From Ruania zhangjianzhongii (GTDB taxonomy: Bacteria; Actinomycetota; Actinomycetes; Actinomycetales; Beutenbergiaceae): a stretch of 64,000 nucleotides of DNA. The position numbers and the translations under genes were made by a program. This document shows, in pieces, positions 19,439-43,142 of the stretch; the first letter of the stretch is position 1; each line of letters begins with the position of its first letter. The stretch is taken from assembly GCF_008000995.1 (NCBI RefSeq), contig NZ_CP042828.1, positions 1,302,001 to 1,366,000 on the forward strand, in the 5' to 3' direction. Below the pieces are notes generated by a model, which was not told where the DNA came from, made no database searches, and saw only the letters and a program-made list of their open reading frames with translations.

Positions 19439-21253
19439 TCAGCCGACCTGGTCGGAAACCTCCAGCCACTGCTCCTCCAGCTCGGCCACCTCGCTCTCCA
19501 GGGCCCGCAGCTCCTCCGTGCGGGTCTGCAGCCCGGCGTAGTCGCTCTGGTCGTGCGCAGCGAGCACCTCGTGCTGGCCGGCGATCTGCCCGGAGAGCTT
19601 GTCCAGCCGGCGCTCGATCGAGGTGAGCCGCTTCTGCGCCGCGCGCAGCGCCGCGCCGGTGAGCCCCTCACCGGCTGGACCGGCATCGGCGGTGGCAGCC
19701 CCAGACGAGGCCTGATCAGGGCGAGTGGACCGATCCGGCCGCGCTGCGCCGTCGTCGGCCCGGAGCCTGAGGTACTCGGCGACTCCGCCGGGCACGTGCC
19801 GCAACCGCCCGCCGAGGATCGCGTATTGCTGGTCGGTGACCCGTTCGAGCAGGTACCGGTCGTGGCTGACCACGATCAACGTGCCCGGCCAGGAGTCCAG
19901 CAGGTCCTCCATCGCGGCGAGCATGTCCGTGTCCACATCGTTGGTGGGCTCGTCCAGGATCAGCACATTCGGCTCGGAGAGCAGCACCAGCAGCAGCTGC
20001 AACCGGCGCCGCTGGCCGCCGGAAAGGTCGGCCACCCGGGCGGAGAGGTGCGCGCGGGAGAAGCCGAGGCGCTCGAGCAGCTGCGCCGGAGTGAGGTCCT
20101 TGCCGTCGACGGCGAAGGTCGTCTTGGTCCGGGCCAGCACCTCCCGTACCCGGTCGGTGGCGATATCGGCGAGCTCGGTGAACTGCTGGTCCAGGATCGC
20201 CACCTGCACGGTCTTGCCCCGTTTGACCCGCCCGGTGGTGGGGGCCAGAGTGCCGGCCACCAGGGAGAGCAGCGTGGACTTGCCGGCTCCGTTGGCGCCG
20301 AGGATGCCGGTGCGCTCCCCGGGGCCGATCCGCCAGGTCACGCCGCAGAGCACTTCGTGCTCGCCGTAGGAGACGGAGACGTCCTCCAGGTCCACCACGT
20401 CCTTGCCGAGGCGGGCGGTGGCCATCCGGGTGAGCTCCAGCCGGTTGCGCACCTCCGGGACGTCGGCGATCAGAGTGTTCGCGGCGTCGATACGGAACTT
20501 CGGTTTGGACGTGCGGGCGGGTGCACCGCGGCGCAACCAGGCGAGCTCTTTGCGCATCAGGTTCGCCCGCTTGGCTTCCACAGTGGCGGCCTGTCGGTCC
20601 CGTTCCACCCGCTGTAGCACGTAGGCCGCATAGCCACCATCGAACGGTTCCACGATCTGGTCGTGCACCTCCCACATCGCGGTGCAGACCTCGTCCAGGA
20701 ACCAGCGGTCGTGGGTGATCACCAGCAGGGCCCCGGCAGTGGCCGGCCAGCGGCGCTTCACATGGTCGGCGAGCCAGGCGATGCCCTCGACGTCCAGGTG
20801 GTTGGTGGGCTCGTCGAGCGCGACCACGTCCCAGTCCTGCACCAGGAGTACGGCCAGGGCCACCCGGCGGCGCTGCCCGCCGCTGAGGTCACCGATGCGC
20901 GTGGCCCAACCGATGTCGCTGACCAGCCCGCTGATCACATCCCGGATCCGGGCGTCGCCGGCCCACTCGTGTTCCGGGGTGTCACCGACGATCGCATCAC
21001 CGACCGTGGACTCGGGGTCCAGGTCGTCGCTCTGGCTGAGCAGGCCCAGGCGCAGGCCGCCGCGGTGGGTGACCCGGCCGCCGTCCGGCTCCAGCCGTCC
21101 GGCGAGCAGGTTCAGCAGGGTGGATTTGCCGTCTCCGTTGCGGCCGACGATGCCGATCCGCATTCCCTCCTCGACGCCGAGGGTCACCGAGTCCAGGACC
21201 ACACGGGTCGGGAACTCCAGGTGCAGGGATTCAGCGCCGAGTAGATGAGCCAC
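19439..21253 (-). CDS. ABC-F family ATPase (Uup-like)
   Basis: A soluble protein of 604 residues with two ABC domains and no membrane spans. Walker A motifs are GRNGDGKST and GANGAGKST, each domain has an SGGQRRR signature, and Walker B is VVALDEPTNHLD and LILDEPTNDVD. The inter-domain linker (about residues 205-250) is rich in basic residues, as in ribosome-acting ABC-F factors. The last 75 residues form a coiled coil (ALRAAQKRLTSIERRLDKL), which points to the Uup-like branch. Relatives of this type are often near ispE in actinobacteria. GTG start at 21253. It is convergent with the MFS gene, 21 bases apart. Confidence 0.92.
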   Translation of the reverse strand: MAHLLGAESLHLEFPTRVVLDSVTLGVEEGMRIGIVGRNGDGKSTLLNLLAGRLEPDGGRVTHRGGLRLGLLSQSDDLDPESTVGDAIVGDTPEHEWAGDARIRDVISGLVSDIGWATRIGDLSGGQRRRVALAVLLVQDWDVVALDEPTNHLDVEGIAWLADHVKRRWPATAGALLVITHDRWFLDEVCTAMWEVHDQIVEPFDGGYAAYVLQRVERDRQAATVEAKRANLMRKELAWLRRGAPARTSKPKFRIDAANTLIADVPEVRNRLELTRMATARLGKDVVDLEDVSVSYGEHEVLCGVTWRIGPGERTGILGANGAGKSTLLSLVAGTLAPTTGRVKRGKTVQVAILDQQFTELADIATDRVREVLARTKTTFAVDGKDLTPAQLLERLGFSRAHLSARVADLSGGQRRRLQLLLVLLSEPNVLILDEPTNDVDTDMLAAMEDLLDSWPGTLIVVSHDRYLLERVTDQQYAILGGRLRHVPGGVAEYLRLRADDGAARPDRSTRPDQASSGAATADAGPAGEGLTGAALRAAQKRLTSIERRLDKLSGQIAGQHEVLAAHDQSDYAGLQTRTEELRALESEVAELEEQWLEVSDQVG

Positions 21254-21459
21254 GGGTCTAGCCTAAGTTCGCGGCACCGGTGCCTCGACACCTCGACGTG
21301 CCACGCATTGACTGGCGCACGTGTGCCCAGCAGACTGGACGCTGCCAACTGAAGGGGAAGGCGGCCGGCCCAGGGGGGCACAGGCCGCAGGGGACCGCCT
21401 GGGCGCTGCGCCCGGGCTGGTGCGCCGCGGAGCCGGTCGCACGAACGAAGGAGCTTGTC

Positions 21460-21966
21460 ATGTCCGAGCCACACCCGTACCAGCAACCGCCAGGGCCACA
21501 TCCGTATCAGCCCGCGCCCGGGCCGCACCAGCAACGGCCAGGCCCACCCGCGGGATACCGCACCCTCTACGGTCCGTTCGCGATCGCAGGCCTCCTGCTG
21601 AGTACCACCCAGCTGTACACACGGCAGGTGACCGAGGGGTACCAGGAACGCCAAACGCTGTGGACGCTGCTGTCCGACCCCAACTGGGCGGGCACCTCAG
21701 CGATCGCGCTGATGCTGATCTTCATGCTGGTCGGGCTCGCCGTCGGCGGGGCAGTGCGGAATGTGCGCACGATCGCGCTGCCGATCACCGTGGCGGTGCT
21801 CTCCCTGCTCGGGGTGGTGATGCTCGCGGCCAAGATCGGATACTCCGACCCGGCCCCGCCCTTCGATGACGGCGGAGCCATGCTGGTCGCGCTCGCCGGG
21901 GCCGGGATACTGCTCGGGCTTGTGCACACCGTGCACCTGGTTCTCTGGCGGACGCGCAACCGCTGA
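21460..21966 (+). CDS. small four-span membrane protein, paralogue 1 of 3
   Basis: Unrecognised family, 168 residues. The first 40 residues are a His/Pro/Gln-rich cytoplasmic tail (PYQQPPGPHPYQ repeats). Four hydrophobic spans follow. Between spans 3 and 4 lies KIGYSDPAPPFDDGGAML, which aligns with KIGWGDRNPPFDDG and KVGWGDSDPAFDDG in the genes at 22157 and 24832. The ATG at 21460 has GAAGGAG upstream. This copy alone carries the Pro-rich tail and lacks the duplicated promoter of the other two. No function is assigned. Confidence 0.8.
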   Translation: MSEPHPYQQPPGPHPYQPAPGPHQQRPGPPAGYRTLYGPFAIAGLLLSTTQLYTRQVTEGYQERQTLWTLLSDPNWAGTSAIALMLIFMLVGLAVGGAVRNVRTIALPITVAVLSLLGVVMLAAKIGYSDPAPPFDDGGAMLVALAGAGILLGLVHTVHLVLWRTRNR

Positions 21967-22085
21967 TCGAACGGGTGCCCGCGGGTCCGGGTCCCACGTC
22001 GGCGCCAGCCCGGTGCTCGAACGGGATGGTGAGCCGGCGCCGGACGGCAGACAGCTGTTCGTCGTCGACCCCGGCAGTTGTCCCG

Positions 22086-22126
22086 TTGACACCTCGCACC
22101 GGTCCGGACACCTTGTGCGTGTCCGG
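22086..22126 (+). promoter_or_regulatory. duplicated promoter/leader copy A (TTGACA plus hairpin)
   Basis: TTGACA at 22086-22091 is followed by a perfect inverted repeat CCGGACAC-N7-GTGTCCGG at 22104-22126. The ATG of the downstream gene lies 34 bases after the GTGTC. The element at 24759-24798 has the same layout. The repeat overlaps where a -10 would fall, so it is either a repressor operator or the start of a structured leader. Confidence 0.6.
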
Positions 22127-22156
22127 GGGAGACAGCACAGAAGGGAAACGCTTGCA

Positions 22157-22612
22157 ATGACCGCAGCTCAGGAACATGACCATGCCGACCCGCTGCCACG
22201 GTACGGGAGCCTGTACGGGCCGCTCGGTGTGCTGGCGCTGGCGCTCAGTGGAACGAACCTCTTTCTGGTCTATGACTCCGACGGCCAGGTCGATCGGGAC
22301 TCGCTCTGGGACATGCTGCACACCAGCTGGGGAACCGAGATCGGCTTCATCTCCCTGCTGCTGATCTTCGTCCTGGCGGGACTGTGCGCCTACGCCGCGG
22401 TGCGCCCGGTGCGCAGCATCGCCTTGCCAGTGGTGATCGCGGGTCTGGCCTTCCTCGGTGCTCTGATGCTGATGTTCAAGATCGGCTGGGGCGATCGGAA
22501 TCCGCCGTTCGACGACGGCGCGATCATGCTGATCAGCACCGCCTGGGGTGCCGTGCTGCTCGGGCTCGTGCACGCCATCCACCTGGCGATCTGGCGGCGA
22601 CACAACCACTGA
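22157..22612 (+). CDS. small four-span membrane protein, paralogue 2 of 3
   Basis: Unrecognised family, 151 residues, four hydrophobic spans. A short hydrophilic N-terminus precedes RYGSLYGPLGVLALALSG. The conserved acidic loop KIGWGDRNPPFDDG lies between spans 3 and 4, and a His-rich C-terminus follows (HAIHLAIWRRHNH). ATG at 22157 after AGAAGGGAAA. It is closest to the copy at 24832 (shared LYG start, CAYAAVRPV and TAWGAVLLG). These look like a duplication separated by the TetR-glycosyltransferase pair. Confidence 0.8.
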   Translation: MTAAQEHDHADPLPRYGSLYGPLGVLALALSGTNLFLVYDSDGQVDRDSLWDMLHTSWGTEIGFISLLLIFVLAGLCAYAAVRPVRSIALPVVIAGLAFLGALMLMFKIGWGDRNPPFDDGAIMLISTAWGAVLLGLVHAIHLAIWRRHNH

Positions 22613-22699
22613 CCGGTTGCCCGGACCAATCAGCGCGGGCGGGTAGCGCATCAGCGGATGGGGCGCGTGAGTGGTGAGCAACTCGCCAGCACTGATGCA

Positions 22700-22722
22700 A
22701 ATAGCGTCCGATGGACGCTATT
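22700..22722. promoter_or_regulatory. perfect palindromic operator of the TetR-glycosyltransferase operon
   Basis: Inverted repeat with 10-base perfect arms, AATAGCGTCC and GGACGCTATT, separated by GAT. TATTAT at 22719-22724 forms a good -10 that overlaps the right arm, with the gene ATG 7 bases after it. This is the layout expected for autorepression by the TetR protein encoded immediately downstream. Confidence 0.75.
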
Positions 22723-22730
22723 ATTGTTCG

Positions 22731-23462
22731 ATGGTCACGGATACCAGTCCCGGTCGCGGTGGCGCAGGTCGTGCCCTGGCACAACTGTGGGGTGTGACGC
22801 CGGCGGCGCGACCGGGTCCCAAGCCGAAGCTCTCGATCGACGCCATCGTCGACGCCGCCCTCGGGATCGCCCGCAGCGACGGGCTGGCGGCGGTGACCAT
22901 GCAGCGCGTCGCCGAGGCGGCCGGATGCGCGAAGATGGCGCTCTATCGGCACGTCAGCGACCGCAGCGACCTGCTGGCCGCCGCACTCGATACCGCGCTC
23001 GGCGAACCGCCCGCCCTCCTCGGGGGATGGCGCGAGCGGTTCGCGATCCTCTGGGAGGGCCTGGCGGACCTCTATCGCCGAGATGCCTGGTTGCTCGATC
23101 TTCCGCCGGACCTCGACGCGCTCACACCGCGAAACGTTGCCTGGATCGACGCGGGGCTGTCGCTGTTCGACACGACCGGCCTATCCTCCGGCGAGCGGTG
23201 GGGCCTCGTGCTGCTGATCACGGAGAACGCACGTTTTGTCGCCCGGCAGCAGCGTTCGGCGGGCAGCCCCATCGATGATCTCGACCGCCTTCTGCTGACC
23301 ACAGCATCGGCCGGTGCGCAGTTGCCGGCTGCACGTTATCCGCACGTGGCGAGGGCTGCGGCCGCTGTCCGATGCGATCCGGAGACCATCGGGTCGGCTG
23401 GTCTGGTGCGCGAGGCGATGGTCCGCGCCATCGCGATCTACTTCCCACCGGAGGTGCCGTGA
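22731..23462 (+). CDS. TetR-family regulator (autoregulatory candidate)
   Basis: DNA-binding repressor of 243 residues. The N-terminal helix-turn-helix runs from about residue 35 to 80 (LSIDAIVDAALGIARSDGLAAVTMQRVAEAAG, then YRHVSDRSDLL). The C-terminal ligand domain resembles the TetR_C actinobacterial type. The ATG at 22731 has no Shine-Dalgarno and lies 7 bases after a TATTAT -10, which suggests a leaderless mRNA; an upstream in-frame ATG/GTG at 22671 would put the operator inside the gene. Its stop overlaps the next start by 1 base, so it probably controls the glycosyltransferase. Confidence 0.9.
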   Translation: MVTDTSPGRGGAGRALAQLWGVTPAARPGPKPKLSIDAIVDAALGIARSDGLAAVTMQRVAEAAGCAKMALYRHVSDRSDLLAAALDTALGEPPALLGGWRERFAILWEGLADLYRRDAWLLDLPPDLDALTPRNVAWIDAGLSLFDTTGLSSGERWGLVLLITENARFVARQQRSAGSPIDDLDRLLLTTASAGAQLPAARYPHVARAAAAVRCDPETIGSAGLVREAMVRAIAIYFPPEVP

Positions 23463-24733
23463 TGGCTGCCGATCACCCGCTTCGCATCCTGTTCGCACCG
23501 GAGACGTTCAATCTCGGTGAGACCTCCCGTGCGGTCGAGGTCGCCAAGCACCTCACCCGGTGGGGCCATGACGTGCTGTTCATGGGCTACTCGAGGCGAT
23601 TCGCCGATTACGTCCGTCGTGCCGGCTTCACCCTGGAATTCCTCGATCCCGAGCTCAGCGAGCGCCAGGCCGACCAGCTGATCGCTGCCGATCAGGGCCG
23701 CAGCCTGCGCCACCCGTTCTCCACCGACATGGTGCGACGCCGAGTCGCGAGCGAACGAGCACTGATCGAACACTGGCAGCCGGACTGCGTGGTGATCGGA
23801 ACCACGCTCACGCTGTTCATCTCTGCCCGAGCTGCCGCAATACCGCTGGTCTACGTCCGGCCCTATGCGATGAGCAAGGGACACCTCGCTCAGATGCGCA
23901 CCTTCCCGCTGTGCCAGGGGAATTCACGGCTCGGCGAACGGGTGAACCGCATCGCGGGGCGAGTCGTGCGAACCGTCGTCCCGCGAGTCCGCTGGAAGCC
24001 TGCGTCGTTCAGCCGGGTTGCCGCCGAGCATCGAGTGTCGTTGCCACCGCGCACTCTCGATGCACTCGATGCTGACCTCACCCTGATCGCCTCCTTGTTC
24101 CCGCACCTGGACCAGCGGCCGCTGGCCCCGGGTGAGGTCGCTGTCGGACCGGTCTATGCCCACGGCGCCGGGGAACTGCCGGAGCGGGTCCGAGCGCTCG
24201 CCGACTCGGATCGACCTGTGGTCTACGTCGGCCTAGGATCCTCGGCCCGGGGCCAGCTCGCGGTCGATATCCTGCATCAGGTCGGCACGCTCGACGTCGA
24301 GGTCGTCTCGAGCGCTGGCCGCTACCTGAGCGAGGCTGAGCGCCACCGGCTACCGGGCAATGTGCAGGTCCACGACTTCCTGCCGGCGCACCTCCTGGCC
24401 GGGATCATCGACGCGTCGGTGATTCACGGTGGTGAAGGCACCGTCCAGACAGCATGCGCCTCGGGAGTGCCGTTCGCTGGGATCGGGCTGCAGTCCGAGC
24501 AGCGGTTCAACATCGATGAATGTGTCCGATACGGCAATGCGGTGCGGTTCACGCCCGGAGATATTCGTTCTGGCCGGCTCCCGGAGCTGCTCACCGGCCT
24601 GCTGAGGGACGACGACGCGCGGCAGGCGGCACAGCAGCTGCACCGGGCCGCGCACCCGGTCGGTGGGTCGAACGCGGCCAGCGCGATCCTCACCTTCATC
24701 CGCGGTGACGTAGGCGCGCCGCCGGGTGGCTGA
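23462..24733 (+). CDS. UDP-glycosyltransferase (MGT-like GT-B)
   Basis: A 423-residue GT1-type glycosyltransferase. The N-terminal acceptor half starts ILFAPETFNLGETSRAVEVAKHL. The C-terminal nucleotide-sugar half has VYVGLGSS and the HGGEGTVQTACASGVPF motif, followed by SEQ and a conserved Asn, typical of macrolide or terpenoid glycosyltransferases. It is fused translationally to TetR by a 1-base overlap. The sugar donor and acceptor are not known. With a repressor upstream, inactivation of an inhibitory aglycone is a reasonable hypothesis. Confidence 0.88.
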   Translation: MAADHPLRILFAPETFNLGETSRAVEVAKHLTRWGHDVLFMGYSRRFADYVRRAGFTLEFLDPELSERQADQLIAADQGRSLRHPFSTDMVRRRVASERALIEHWQPDCVVIGTTLTLFISARAAAIPLVYVRPYAMSKGHLAQMRTFPLCQGNSRLGERVNRIAGRVVRTVVPRVRWKPASFSRVAAEHRVSLPPRTLDALDADLTLIASLFPHLDQRPLAPGEVAVGPVYAHGAGELPERVRALADSDRPVVYVGLGSSARGQLAVDILHQVGTLDVEVVSSAGRYLSEAERHRLPGNVQVHDFLPAHLLAGIIDASVIHGGEGTVQTACASGVPFAGIGLQSEQRFNIDECVRYGNAVRFTPGDIRSGRLPELLTGLLRDDDARQAAQQLHRAAHPVGGSNAASAILTFIRGDVGAPPGG

Positions 24734-24758
24734 GGCGGGCGCATCCGCTCAATAACCG

Positions 24759-24798
24759 TTGACACCCTCGGCAGGACCCCAGACACTCTGTGCGTGTC
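24759..24798 (+). promoter_or_regulatory. duplicated promoter/leader copy B (TTGACA plus hairpin)
   Basis: TTGACA at 24759-24764 and an inverted repeat GACAC-N7-GTGTC at 24782-24798. The downstream ATG is exactly 34 bases after GTGTC, as in copy A. Loop sequences TCTGTGC and CTTGTGC differ at two positions. The conservation in a non-coding stretch indicates a shared regulator or RNA structure. Confidence 0.6.
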
Positions 24799-24831
24799 CA
24801 AGGGGGACATGACGAGAGGGGAATGCTCGCA

Positions 24832-25290
24832 ATGACTGCACCTGATGAACCGGGGCGCGTCCAGGGACCACCACGCTACGGCAGCTTGTACGGCGCGATC
24901 GCTGTGCTCGCACTGGCGCTGAACGGGACGTCGTTCTACCTCGGCGAACCGAACTCCTCCGGTGAGGTCTACCGGGAGTCGCTGTGGAAGATGCTGGAGC
25001 GCCCGTACGGGATGGATCTCGCCCTGGTCTCGCTGCTGATGGTCTTTGTGATGGTGGGGTTGTGCGCCTACGCCGCGGTCCGTCCGGTGACCAGCGTGGC
25101 GGTACCGGTGATCGTCGCACTGATTTCATTGGGCGGCGCGGTGATGCTGATGCTGAAGGTCGGCTGGGGGGACAGCGACCCAGCATTCGACGACGGCGGC
25201 ATCATGCTGATGAACACGGCGTGGGGTGCGGTGCTGCTCGGGATCGTGCACACCGTCCACCTGATCGTCTGGCGGGCCCGCTACCGCTGA
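24832..25290 (+). CDS. small four-span membrane protein, paralogue 3 of 3
   Basis: 152 residues, four spans, same family as 22157 (RYGSLYGAIAVLALALNG, CAYAAVRPV, KVGWGDSDPAFDDGGIML, TAWGAVLLGIVHTVHLIVW). The ATG at 24832 is preceded by GAGAGGGGAA. An upstream in-frame GTG at 24790 would read through the leader hairpin and is not favoured. It ends before a bidirectional terminator-like hairpin shared with the marR gene. Confidence 0.8.
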   Translation: MTAPDEPGRVQGPPRYGSLYGAIAVLALALNGTSFYLGEPNSSGEVYRESLWKMLERPYGMDLALVSLLMVFVMVGLCAYAAVRPVTSVAVPVIVALISLGGAVMLMLKVGWGDSDPAFDDGGIMLMNTAWGAVLLGIVHTVHLIVWRARYR

Positions 25291-25330
25291 GGTTTCCGAC
25301 CGGAGAACACCGCCACGCCGTTGAGCGGGT

Positions 25331-25376
25331 GAAGCCAGCGGGCTTGGCGTCCGTGCCATGGACGCCAGCGGGCTTC
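25331..25376. terminator. hairpin between convergent genes
   Basis: GAAGCC at 25331 pairs with GGCTTC at 25371, and GGCGTCC (25346) pairs with GGACGCC (25360) across a 7-base loop. It sits between the convergent membrane-protein and marR genes and overlaps the first bases of the marR stop codon. No T-tract, as is common in high-GC actinobacteria. Confidence 0.5.
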
Positions 25377-25869
25377 AGTGCTCGAACTGGGTGAGCAGCT
25401 GGCGCAGGATGGCGGAGAGCTCCTCGCTCTGCGTCCCATCGATGCCGGCGAGCAGTCGGGACTCCCGGCGCAGCAGATCCTCCATCGCAGCGTCTACCAC
25501 TGCGCGTCCGGCGTCGGTGAGTCGCACCAGCACCACCCGGCGGTCTTCCGGTGCCGGTGCGCGGACCACCAGGCCGTGTGCCACCAGCCGGTCGATCCGA
25601 TTGGTCATCGTGCCCGAGGAGACCAGAGTCTGGGTGAGCAGCCGGCCGGGGGTGAGCTGGTAGGGCTCACCGGCGCGGCGCAGCGCGGAGAGCACGTCGA
25701 ACTCCCACACCTCCAGGCCGTGCTGGGCGAAGGCTGCCCGCCGGGCGAGGTCCAGATGCCGGGAGAGCCGGCCGATCCTGGAGAAGACGCGCAGCGGTGT
25801 GACGTCCAGGTCGGGGCGCTCGCGCTGCCACGCCTGGACGATCCGGTCGACCTCGTCCTCAGCGGTCAT
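25375..25869 (-). CDS. MarR-family transcriptional regulator
   Basis: A 164-residue winged-helix regulator. Helix-turn-helix region LTPGRLLTQTLVSSGTMTNRIDRLVAHGLV and wing PEDRRVVLVRLTDAGRAVV are canonical. The N-terminal helix includes LDLARRAAFAQHGLEVWEFDVLSAL. ATG at 25869. It is monocistronic as far as can be seen; no target gene is adjacent in the same direction. Ligand unknown. Confidence 0.92.
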   Translation of the reverse strand: MTAEDEVDRIVQAWQRERPDLDVTPLRVFSRIGRLSRHLDLARRAAFAQHGLEVWEFDVLSALRRAGEPYQLTPGRLLTQTLVSSGTMTNRIDRLVAHGLVVRAPAPEDRRVVLVRLTDAGRAVVDAAMEDLLRRESRLLAGIDGTQSEELSAILRQLLTQFEH

Positions 25870-41972: not shown

Positions 41973-43142
41973 TCAGATCGCGGTGACCGCGGCCACTGCC
42001 TCGCCCACGGAGTCCGCCGCGGAGAGTAGGCCCGTGACGTCTACGTCGGAGCCGAAGGTGAAGCGCACCGAGGTCTGTGCGATCTCGGGGTCGATCCCGC
42101 AGGCGAGCAGCACGTGCGAAGGTTCGTCGGAGCCAGCCGCGCAGGCCGACCCGCTCGAACTGATCACCCCGCGCCGCTCCAGCTCTAGCAGCACCGCCTC
42201 ACCGGAGACGCCCGGAAAGCAGAACGAGGCGTGGTTCGGCAGCCGGCCGAAGCCCTCGACGCCGACAACAGCAGTGGCAGAACCCTGCTCCGCCCCGGTG
42301 AGCACCGCCGTCGGCACCAGCTCACGCACCCGGGCGATGAAAGCATCGCGTGCCGCGGCGATCCGCTCAGCCCGTTCACCGCACTCCGCATCCGCCAGGC
42401 TCAACGCTGCCCCCAGCGCCGCCGCACCGGCCACGTTCTCCGTCCCCGACCGGCGCTCGCGCTCCTGCCCACCACCGTGCAGCACGGGCTCCACCGGCAG
42501 CCGCCCACGCAGGAACACCGCGCCAATGCCCTTCCCGGCACCTACTTTGTGCCCGGACACACTCAGTGCGTCCACCCCCAGTTCGCGCACGTCCAGGTCC
42601 AGCCAGCCCGCGGCTTGCACGGCGTCGGTGTGCACCAGTGCCCCCACCCCATGCGCCACCCCAGCCAGCGCCGCCAGGTCCTGCACGGTCCCGATCTCAT
42701 TGTTCGCCAGCGCCACGGACACCAGCGTGGTGTCCTCGCGCAGCACGGCGGTCAGGGCGTCCGGCGTCACCACGCCTGCGCGTGTCACGTCCACGAACGA
42801 GACCTCGAACCCGTGCAGCCGGCGCAGATAATCCACCGATTCGAGCACGGCCTCGTGCTCGGTCGCGGCCGTGACCAGATGCCGCCCCCGCGGGTTCGCC
42901 AGCGCCAGTCCTTTGATCGCCAGGTTCGCGCCCTCGGTGCCGCCGGAGGTGAACACCGCCTCACTGGCCCGGCAGTCCAGCACCCCCGCCACCTGCCGCC
43001 GCGCCGCGGTCAGCCCGGCCGCCGCCCGTTCGCCCAGGCTGTGCTGGCTGGAGGGGTTGCCGAACTCCCCGGTCAGGTAGGGCCAGGCGGCCTCCAGGGC
43101 TTCCCGGCGCATCGGCGCGGTTGCTGCAGCGTCCAGATACAT
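41973..43142 (-). CDS. cysteine desulfurase (NifS/IscS-like) of the NAD operon
   Basis: PLP enzyme releasing sulfur from cysteine. 389 residues. The PLP Lys is in SVSGHKVGAGKGIGA, the conserved His in AATEHEAVL, substrate-binding RSGTENVAG, and the catalytic Cys in SSSGSACAAG. It is the last gene of nrtR-nadA-nadB-nadC, 4 bases after nadC. The position implies it supplies sulfur for the NadA 4Fe-4S cluster, as proposed for NadS/NifS genes in other nad operons; that is inference from context. Confidence 0.94.
   Translation of the reverse strand: MYLDAAATAPMRREALEAAWPYLTGEFGNPSSQHSLGERAAAGLTAARRQVAGVLDCRASEAVFTSGGTEGANLAIKGLALANPRGRHLVTAATEHEAVLESVDYLRRLHGFEVSFVDVTRAGVVTPDALTAVLREDTTLVSVALANNEIGTVQDLAALAGVAHGVGALVHTDAVQAAGWLDLDVRELGVDALSVSGHKVGAGKGIGAVFLRGRLPVEPVLHGGGQERERRSGTENVAGAAALGAALSLADAECGERAERIAAARDAFIARVRELVPTAVLTGAEQGSATAVVGVEGFGRLPNHASFCFPGVSGEAVLLELERRGVISSSGSACAAGSDEPSHVLLACGIDPEIAQTSVRFTFGSDVDVTGLLSAADSVGEAVAAVTAI

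Follow-up and report, generated by a model that had tools for sequence, protein, structure and literature searches.

According to its published description, the mycobacterial protein Rv0954 has four membrane spans, cytoplasmic ends and a half rich in Pro (18 per cent) and Gln (15 per cent), is located at mid-cell, binds LamA, PbpA and PknH, and is presented as having no homologs in other bacteria (PMC8093794). Here we analyze a stretch of 64,000 nucleotides from Ruania zhangjianzhongii (contig NZ_CP042828.1, positions 1,302,001 to 1,366,000; hereafter, the window) in which three genes encode small, predicted four-span membrane proteins that belong, as paralogs, to one unnamed actinobacterial family. 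Judging from the sequences, we favor the reading that these paralogs are non-catalytic membrane adaptors, to which we assign a probability of roughly 38 per cent.

Three four-span paralogs in Ruania zhangjianzhongii

The three genes and their segments encoding the third loop between spans (loop 3) are as follows:

21460-21966, + strand: copy 1, four-span membrane protein of 168 amino acids
21832-21873, + strand: loop 3 of copy 1, KIGYSDPAPPFDDG (codons located)
22157-22612, + strand: copy 2, four-span membrane protein of 151 amino acids
22478-22519, + strand: loop 3 of copy 2, KIGWGDRNPPFDDG (codons located)
24832-25290, + strand: copy 3, four-span membrane protein of 152 amino acids
25156-25197, + strand: loop 3 of copy 3, KVGWGDSDPAFDDG (codons located)

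The three-copy family proposed in the initial annotation, which had been made by a model from the letters of the window, is real: the encoded proteins are 56 per cent (copies 2 and 3), 43 per cent (copies 1 and 2), and 42 per cent (copies 1 and 3) identical, and all carry the loop K-[IV]-G-[YW]-[SG]-D...FDDG. In tblastn comparisons against the DNA of copy 3, copies 1 and 2 matched with E-values of 2.2e-35 and 5.5e-56, respectively, and across the whole genome a profile search (E ≤ 1) recovered just these three copies and nothing further. The third-position G+C content of the three genes is 0.85–0.86. Copy 1 additionally has an N-terminal tail rich in Pro and Gln (12 Pro and 5 Gln among 33 residues).

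Purifying selection clearly acts on copies 1 and 3, whose dN/dS ratios against orthologs in Candidatus Ruania gallistercoris are 0.30 and 0.22, respectively, values that show selection for function. The evidence for copy 2 is weaker: it is without an ortholog in R. gallistercoris, and its dN/dS ratio against copy 3 is 0.46. In more distant pairs within the family, the ratio is as high as 0.90.

The four-span topology attributed to all three proteins holds by hydropathy (span threshold of 1.3) for copies 2 and 3, whereas copy 1 has only three spans above the threshold; the first span of copy 1, with a peak of 0.97, was positioned from the alignment with the other copies. Loop 2 and the C-terminus are positively charged, and the net charge of loops 1 and 3 is negative, with three to four acidic residues in loop 3 of each copy, in agreement with the acidic loop noted earlier. 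By the positive-inside rule, both protein ends are probably inside and the acidic loops, including the FDDG segment, outside.

Residue conservation, occurrence and family names

To describe conservation, we use an alignment of 21 rows, comprising seven from the Ruania group, five from f7, eight from f38, and one from f45 (actinobacterial family labels), with residues numbered as in copy 2, where D119 is the first Asp of FDDG. Near copies (L028, L030, L032, and L038), the doubtful L031, and L043, whose frame departs after span 3, were left out of it, the genome of the last (G532) still being counted as a match. All 21 rows have Y20, W51, and L105; 20 have L50, P116, and G122, and 19 have Y16, H139, and H142, with Gln at position 139 in two f38 rows. 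R83 occurs in 15 rows, and K108 and D113 in 14 each. Aromatic residues, Pro, Gly, Leu, and His thus make up most of the best-kept positions, and the unnamed family gains a clear signature, a frame of four spans with Y20, L50-W51, P116, G122, and H139-x-x-H142, to which the three copies conform (with Ala in place of G122 in copy 2).

The initial annotation took the conserved Asp residues of the loop to suggest cation binding or a functional site, an idea that the alignment supports only in part: as a functional site of the family as a whole, the Asp pair is not supported. D119 is Asp in all seven Ruania-group rows and in none of the 14 others; D120 is Asp in ten of 21 rows (Ruania group 7/7, f7 3/5, f38 0/8, and f45 0/1). 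Because D119 is Asp in 0/14 and D120 in 3/14 rows outside the Ruania group, the pair is largely a feature of the Ruania clade, and the whole loop K-x-G-x-x-D-P-x-P is older than the pair. Loss of the Asp residues outside this genome had been named as evidence against their importance; such loss is seen beyond the Ruania group and not within it, where the other species seen keep the pair. The residues to mutate first are therefore W51, H139, H142, and P116 instead of the Asp pair.

The family is real, unnamed, and patchily spread. Among its relatives, Candidatus R. gallistercoris has two adjacent copies, and a single copy was found in Ruania albidiflava DSM 18029; overall, relatives were accepted in three of eight genomes of the genus and in one genome of a neighboring genus, and they are patchy in three other actinobacterial families. 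At the family level, eight of 24 genomes match at E of 0.01, and four were accepted (G000, G005, G007, and G013); the other four matches are weak, and the two that were read (L018 and L020) are unrelated proteins. The order-, class-, and phylum-level searches scored nine first-look candidates per genome, so that absences in them are soft: 12 of 396 genomes match at the order level (11 accepted, namely the same four and seven of f7), 16 of 394 at the class level (11 accepted, namely the window genome, eight of f38, and two of f45, one of them partial), and in the phylum sample of 396 genomes the window genome is the sole match at 1e-5. A separate search of f38 matched eight of its 22 genomes. 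Three further weak matches (L044, L046, and L047) were read as unrelated proteins; the remaining weak matches are L010, L012, L019, L021, L045, and L048, L011 coincides with L018, and L031 (G242, E of 9e-4) was not counted among the relatives.

No curated family reaches its cut-off for the three copies, enzyme and ion-transport families included, consistent with the family having gone unrecognized in the initial annotation, and a literature search, judged from its listings alone, yielded no description of the four-span family. STING_TM (PF23417), which has a four-span layout like that of the three copies, reaches 15.6 bits with copy 1 and 15.8 bits with copy 3, its cut-off being 28.1, does not list copy 2, and matches three of 13 family members at E ≤ 1 (best 0.0074). 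CopD (PF05425), which resembles the family in having a conserved His in a membrane span, reaches 11.1 bits with copy 3, its cut-off being 32.1, and does not list copies 1 and 2; at E ≤ 1 it matches two of the 13 members, the better at 0.0018. Like CopD, DUF5134 and the other weak profile matches touch few members each. Matches to exosortase/archaeosortase families (best E of 4.7e-5) were rejected, as the rows seen reach 19.8 bits where 270 are required and 18.5 bits where 100 are. The best match among solved structures has an E-value of 0.94. A phage, defense, or plasmid origin was likewise rejected: no match was found in PHROGs or PADLOC at E of 0.01, in a search that did not extend to collections of phage and viral sequences, nor among plasmids at E of 0.1 for copy 2 or one f7 relative.

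Candidate roles and remote kin

The profile of the 21 rows aligns with that of eight DUF5336-like rows with a probability of 66–75 per cent and a score of 34–35 (hhalign), exceeding the controls, which scored at most 13.5 in 30 column shuffles and, over 19 windows of unrelated membrane families, at most 15.4 with the family profile and 17.8 with the DUF5336 profile. Omission of any one of 20 rows left the probability at 67–79 per cent. Both families have four spans with similar spacing, and many rows of both have a K-P step ahead of the last loop (in our family, f38 and f45 rows and not the Ruania copies). A Pro/Gln-rich cytoplasmic tail, found in copy 1 alone of the three copies, is present in all five DUF5336 rows checked (13–28 per cent Pro and 12–36 per cent Gln). 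The four-span family is perhaps, therefore, distantly related to DUF5336, a remote and testable link to a mycobacterial division protein. Our literature search found nothing under the term DUF5336, nor on Rv0954 homologs in actinobacteria.

A second lead comes from gene neighborhoods in f38, where a four-span gene abuts large NHL-propeller genes in six of eight genomes and for seven of nine copies. Pfam confirms NHL in three of these neighbor proteins, and each of the four that were read begins like a leader and has a hydrophobic stretch at the C-terminus. In the remaining two genomes, the neighbor is a convergent subtilase gene (G548) or a gene for a putative exported protein (G413), which from its start resembles a chitin-binding oxygenase. 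When one f38 NHL protein was searched against 13 genomes, five matched at 1e-10, namely G521 and G413 (in the latter, on another contig) and, with weak matches, G013, G195, and G372. In one place (L052, 3229-14092), NHL and four-span genes alternate in the order NHL, four-span, NHL, four-span, NHL, an arrangement that suggests repeated duplication of an NHL/four-span pair.

We favor a membrane adaptor because no enzyme family matches, the conserved positions are aromatic, Pro, and Gly, and the DUF5336 and NHL leads point in this direction. A partner that is exported or resides in the membrane would be bound by the helix bundle and the outer loops (at W51 and, in loop 3, around D113-P-x-P116), and an inner partner by the short ends in the cytoplasm, which in copy 1 are Pro/Gln-rich; such an anchoring role would be akin to the one suggested for mycobacterial Rv0954. 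There is a slim chance of something more specific, namely a new actinobacterial adaptor family that docks lineage-specific exported proteins (in f38, the giant NHL propellers; in other lineages, other partners) to the membrane and shares its ancestry with the Rv0954 divisome protein. If that shared ancestry were true, a trait thought to be confined to mycobacteria would be an old actinobacterial one.

Several observations weigh against an adaptor role and the kinship invoked for it. Ruania has no known partner, and none of the three Ruania genomes with the family, nor G548, has an NHL match at 1e-10, and NHL proteins were accordingly rejected as the universal partner for Ruania. The net negative N-terminus of copy 2 gives no help to the ends-inside topology, and H139 and H142 could bind a metal, haem, or quinone. 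The DUF5336 probability falls to 41 per cent without row L042 and to 40 per cent without the three long-branch rows. L042 itself belongs with the four-span family (98.9 per cent against the other rows). Subgroups taken alone fall short, with probabilities of 7 and 2 per cent for the Ruania group, 17 per cent for f7, and 0.5 per cent for f38. The DUF5336 cut-off of 28.6 bits is reached by no member; only L042 scores (18.2 bits, E of 0.0034), and the two weak DUF5336 matches listed for the window genome (G000) at E ≤ 1 include none of the three copies. Seven of the eight DUF5336-like rows are above this cut-off and one (L095) is below. The link is a match between membrane spans. The tail is N-terminal in copy 1 and C-terminal in DUF5336, and copies 2 and 3 are without one. 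That Rv0954 is a member of DUF5336 (PF17270) is our assumption. As for the mycobacterial protein itself, deletion of rv0954 is reported to have altered neither morphology nor drug sensitivity in any apparent way (PMC8093794).

Other roles can be read from the same conserved positions. H139-x-x-H142 in the fourth span, together with Y16, Y20, and R83 near the inner face, might bind haem, copper, or quinone, in which case the protein would be a carrier or sensor of redox state or of metal. The high conservation of both His residues and of the two Tyr residues, the presence of R83 in most rows, and the weak CopD match are in line with such a cofactor protein, but CopD is far below its cut-off in copy 3, it shares with DUF5134 and the other weak matches a reach of few members, two f38 rows have Gln at position 139, and no recurrent metal or respiratory gene was noticed among the neighbors listed. 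We regard a cofactor role as unlikely. Another reading, which builds on the cation binding suggested in the initial annotation, would have the outer Asp cluster bind a cation and the protein sense or transport ions or respond to envelope stress. The three to four acidic residues of each loop 3, predicted to be outside, and the constancy of the Asp pair in the Ruania group would fit this proposal, yet the first Asp is absent from 14/14 and the second from 11/14 of the more distant rows, and the ion-transport families are all below their cut-offs. Cation binding by the Asp pair is the weakest of the functional readings and quite improbable.

The position of the genes, in contrast to their function, might be explained by a dispensable accessory locus, in which a variable slot is filled by differing small genes in different species. 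Between the ABC-F and MarR genes, three of eight genus genomes have four-span genes, and the other five have an alpha/beta hydrolase gene (L082-L086; Pfam confirms one of the five); together with the patchy distribution of the family, this suits such a locus. Dispensability is at odds with the ortholog dN/dS ratios of copies 1 and 3, and we consider the explanation improbable; as an account of place, it is compatible with a membrane adaptor.

Duplication history, leaders and neighboring genes

Phylogenetic analysis of the copies in related genomes, which had been proposed as a check, places the three copies in one family with Ruania-group orthologs. Copy 1 clusters with the gene of R. albidiflava and with one of the two R. 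gallistercoris genes, and copy 2 is sister to a group of copy 3 and the other R. gallistercoris gene. The deep forks of the tree are weak and the branches long, and only its Ruania part was used. On this part, the lineage of copy 1 diverged from the common ancestor of copies 2 and 3, whose own separation predates that between the window species and R. gallistercoris. The leaders of copies 2 and 3 and the two genes between these copies, the latter given for context only, are as follows:

22083-22156, + strand: leader of copy 2, with CCGTTGACACC and then GGACAC-N7-GTGTCC (22106-22124)
22731-23462, + strand: TetR-family regulator gene
23462-24733, + strand: MGT/EryCIII-like glycosyltransferase gene, its start codon overlapping the TetR stop
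24756-24831, + strand: leader of copy 3, with CCGTTGACACC and then AGACAC-N7-GTGTCC (24781-24799)

The two leaders are 75 per cent alike over 72 bases, and an 11-base string common to them occurs twice in the window, where 0.03 occurrences are expected. Genome-wide, the pattern GTTGACACC-N8-24-GACACNNTG is found only ahead of copies 2 and 3, and the leader therefore looks like a duplicated one; since the pattern is confined to these two copies, a regulon was rejected. The copy 3 leader is also retained, imperfectly, ahead of the R. gallistercoris ortholog. GGACAC-N7-GTGTCC, with up to two mismatches, occurs 19 times in the window (e.g. at 42555-42735) against 6.7 expected from shuffles, and is therefore not specific to four-span genes. 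The region yielded no promoter in a simple sigma-70 scan. Because the leaders looked conserved, a structured leader was considered and rejected: at Rfam thresholds, only a tRNA was found in the window, and a permissive search of 21200-25400 gave one chance-level match (E of 4.8).

The TetR and glycosyltransferase pair is not at the corresponding place in the R. gallistercoris and R. albidiflava loci. Shortly upstream of the TetR gene, at 22700-22722, lies a perfect 10-3-10 palindrome (AATAGCGTCC GAT GGACGCTATT), which is likely the operator of a self-regulating TetR.

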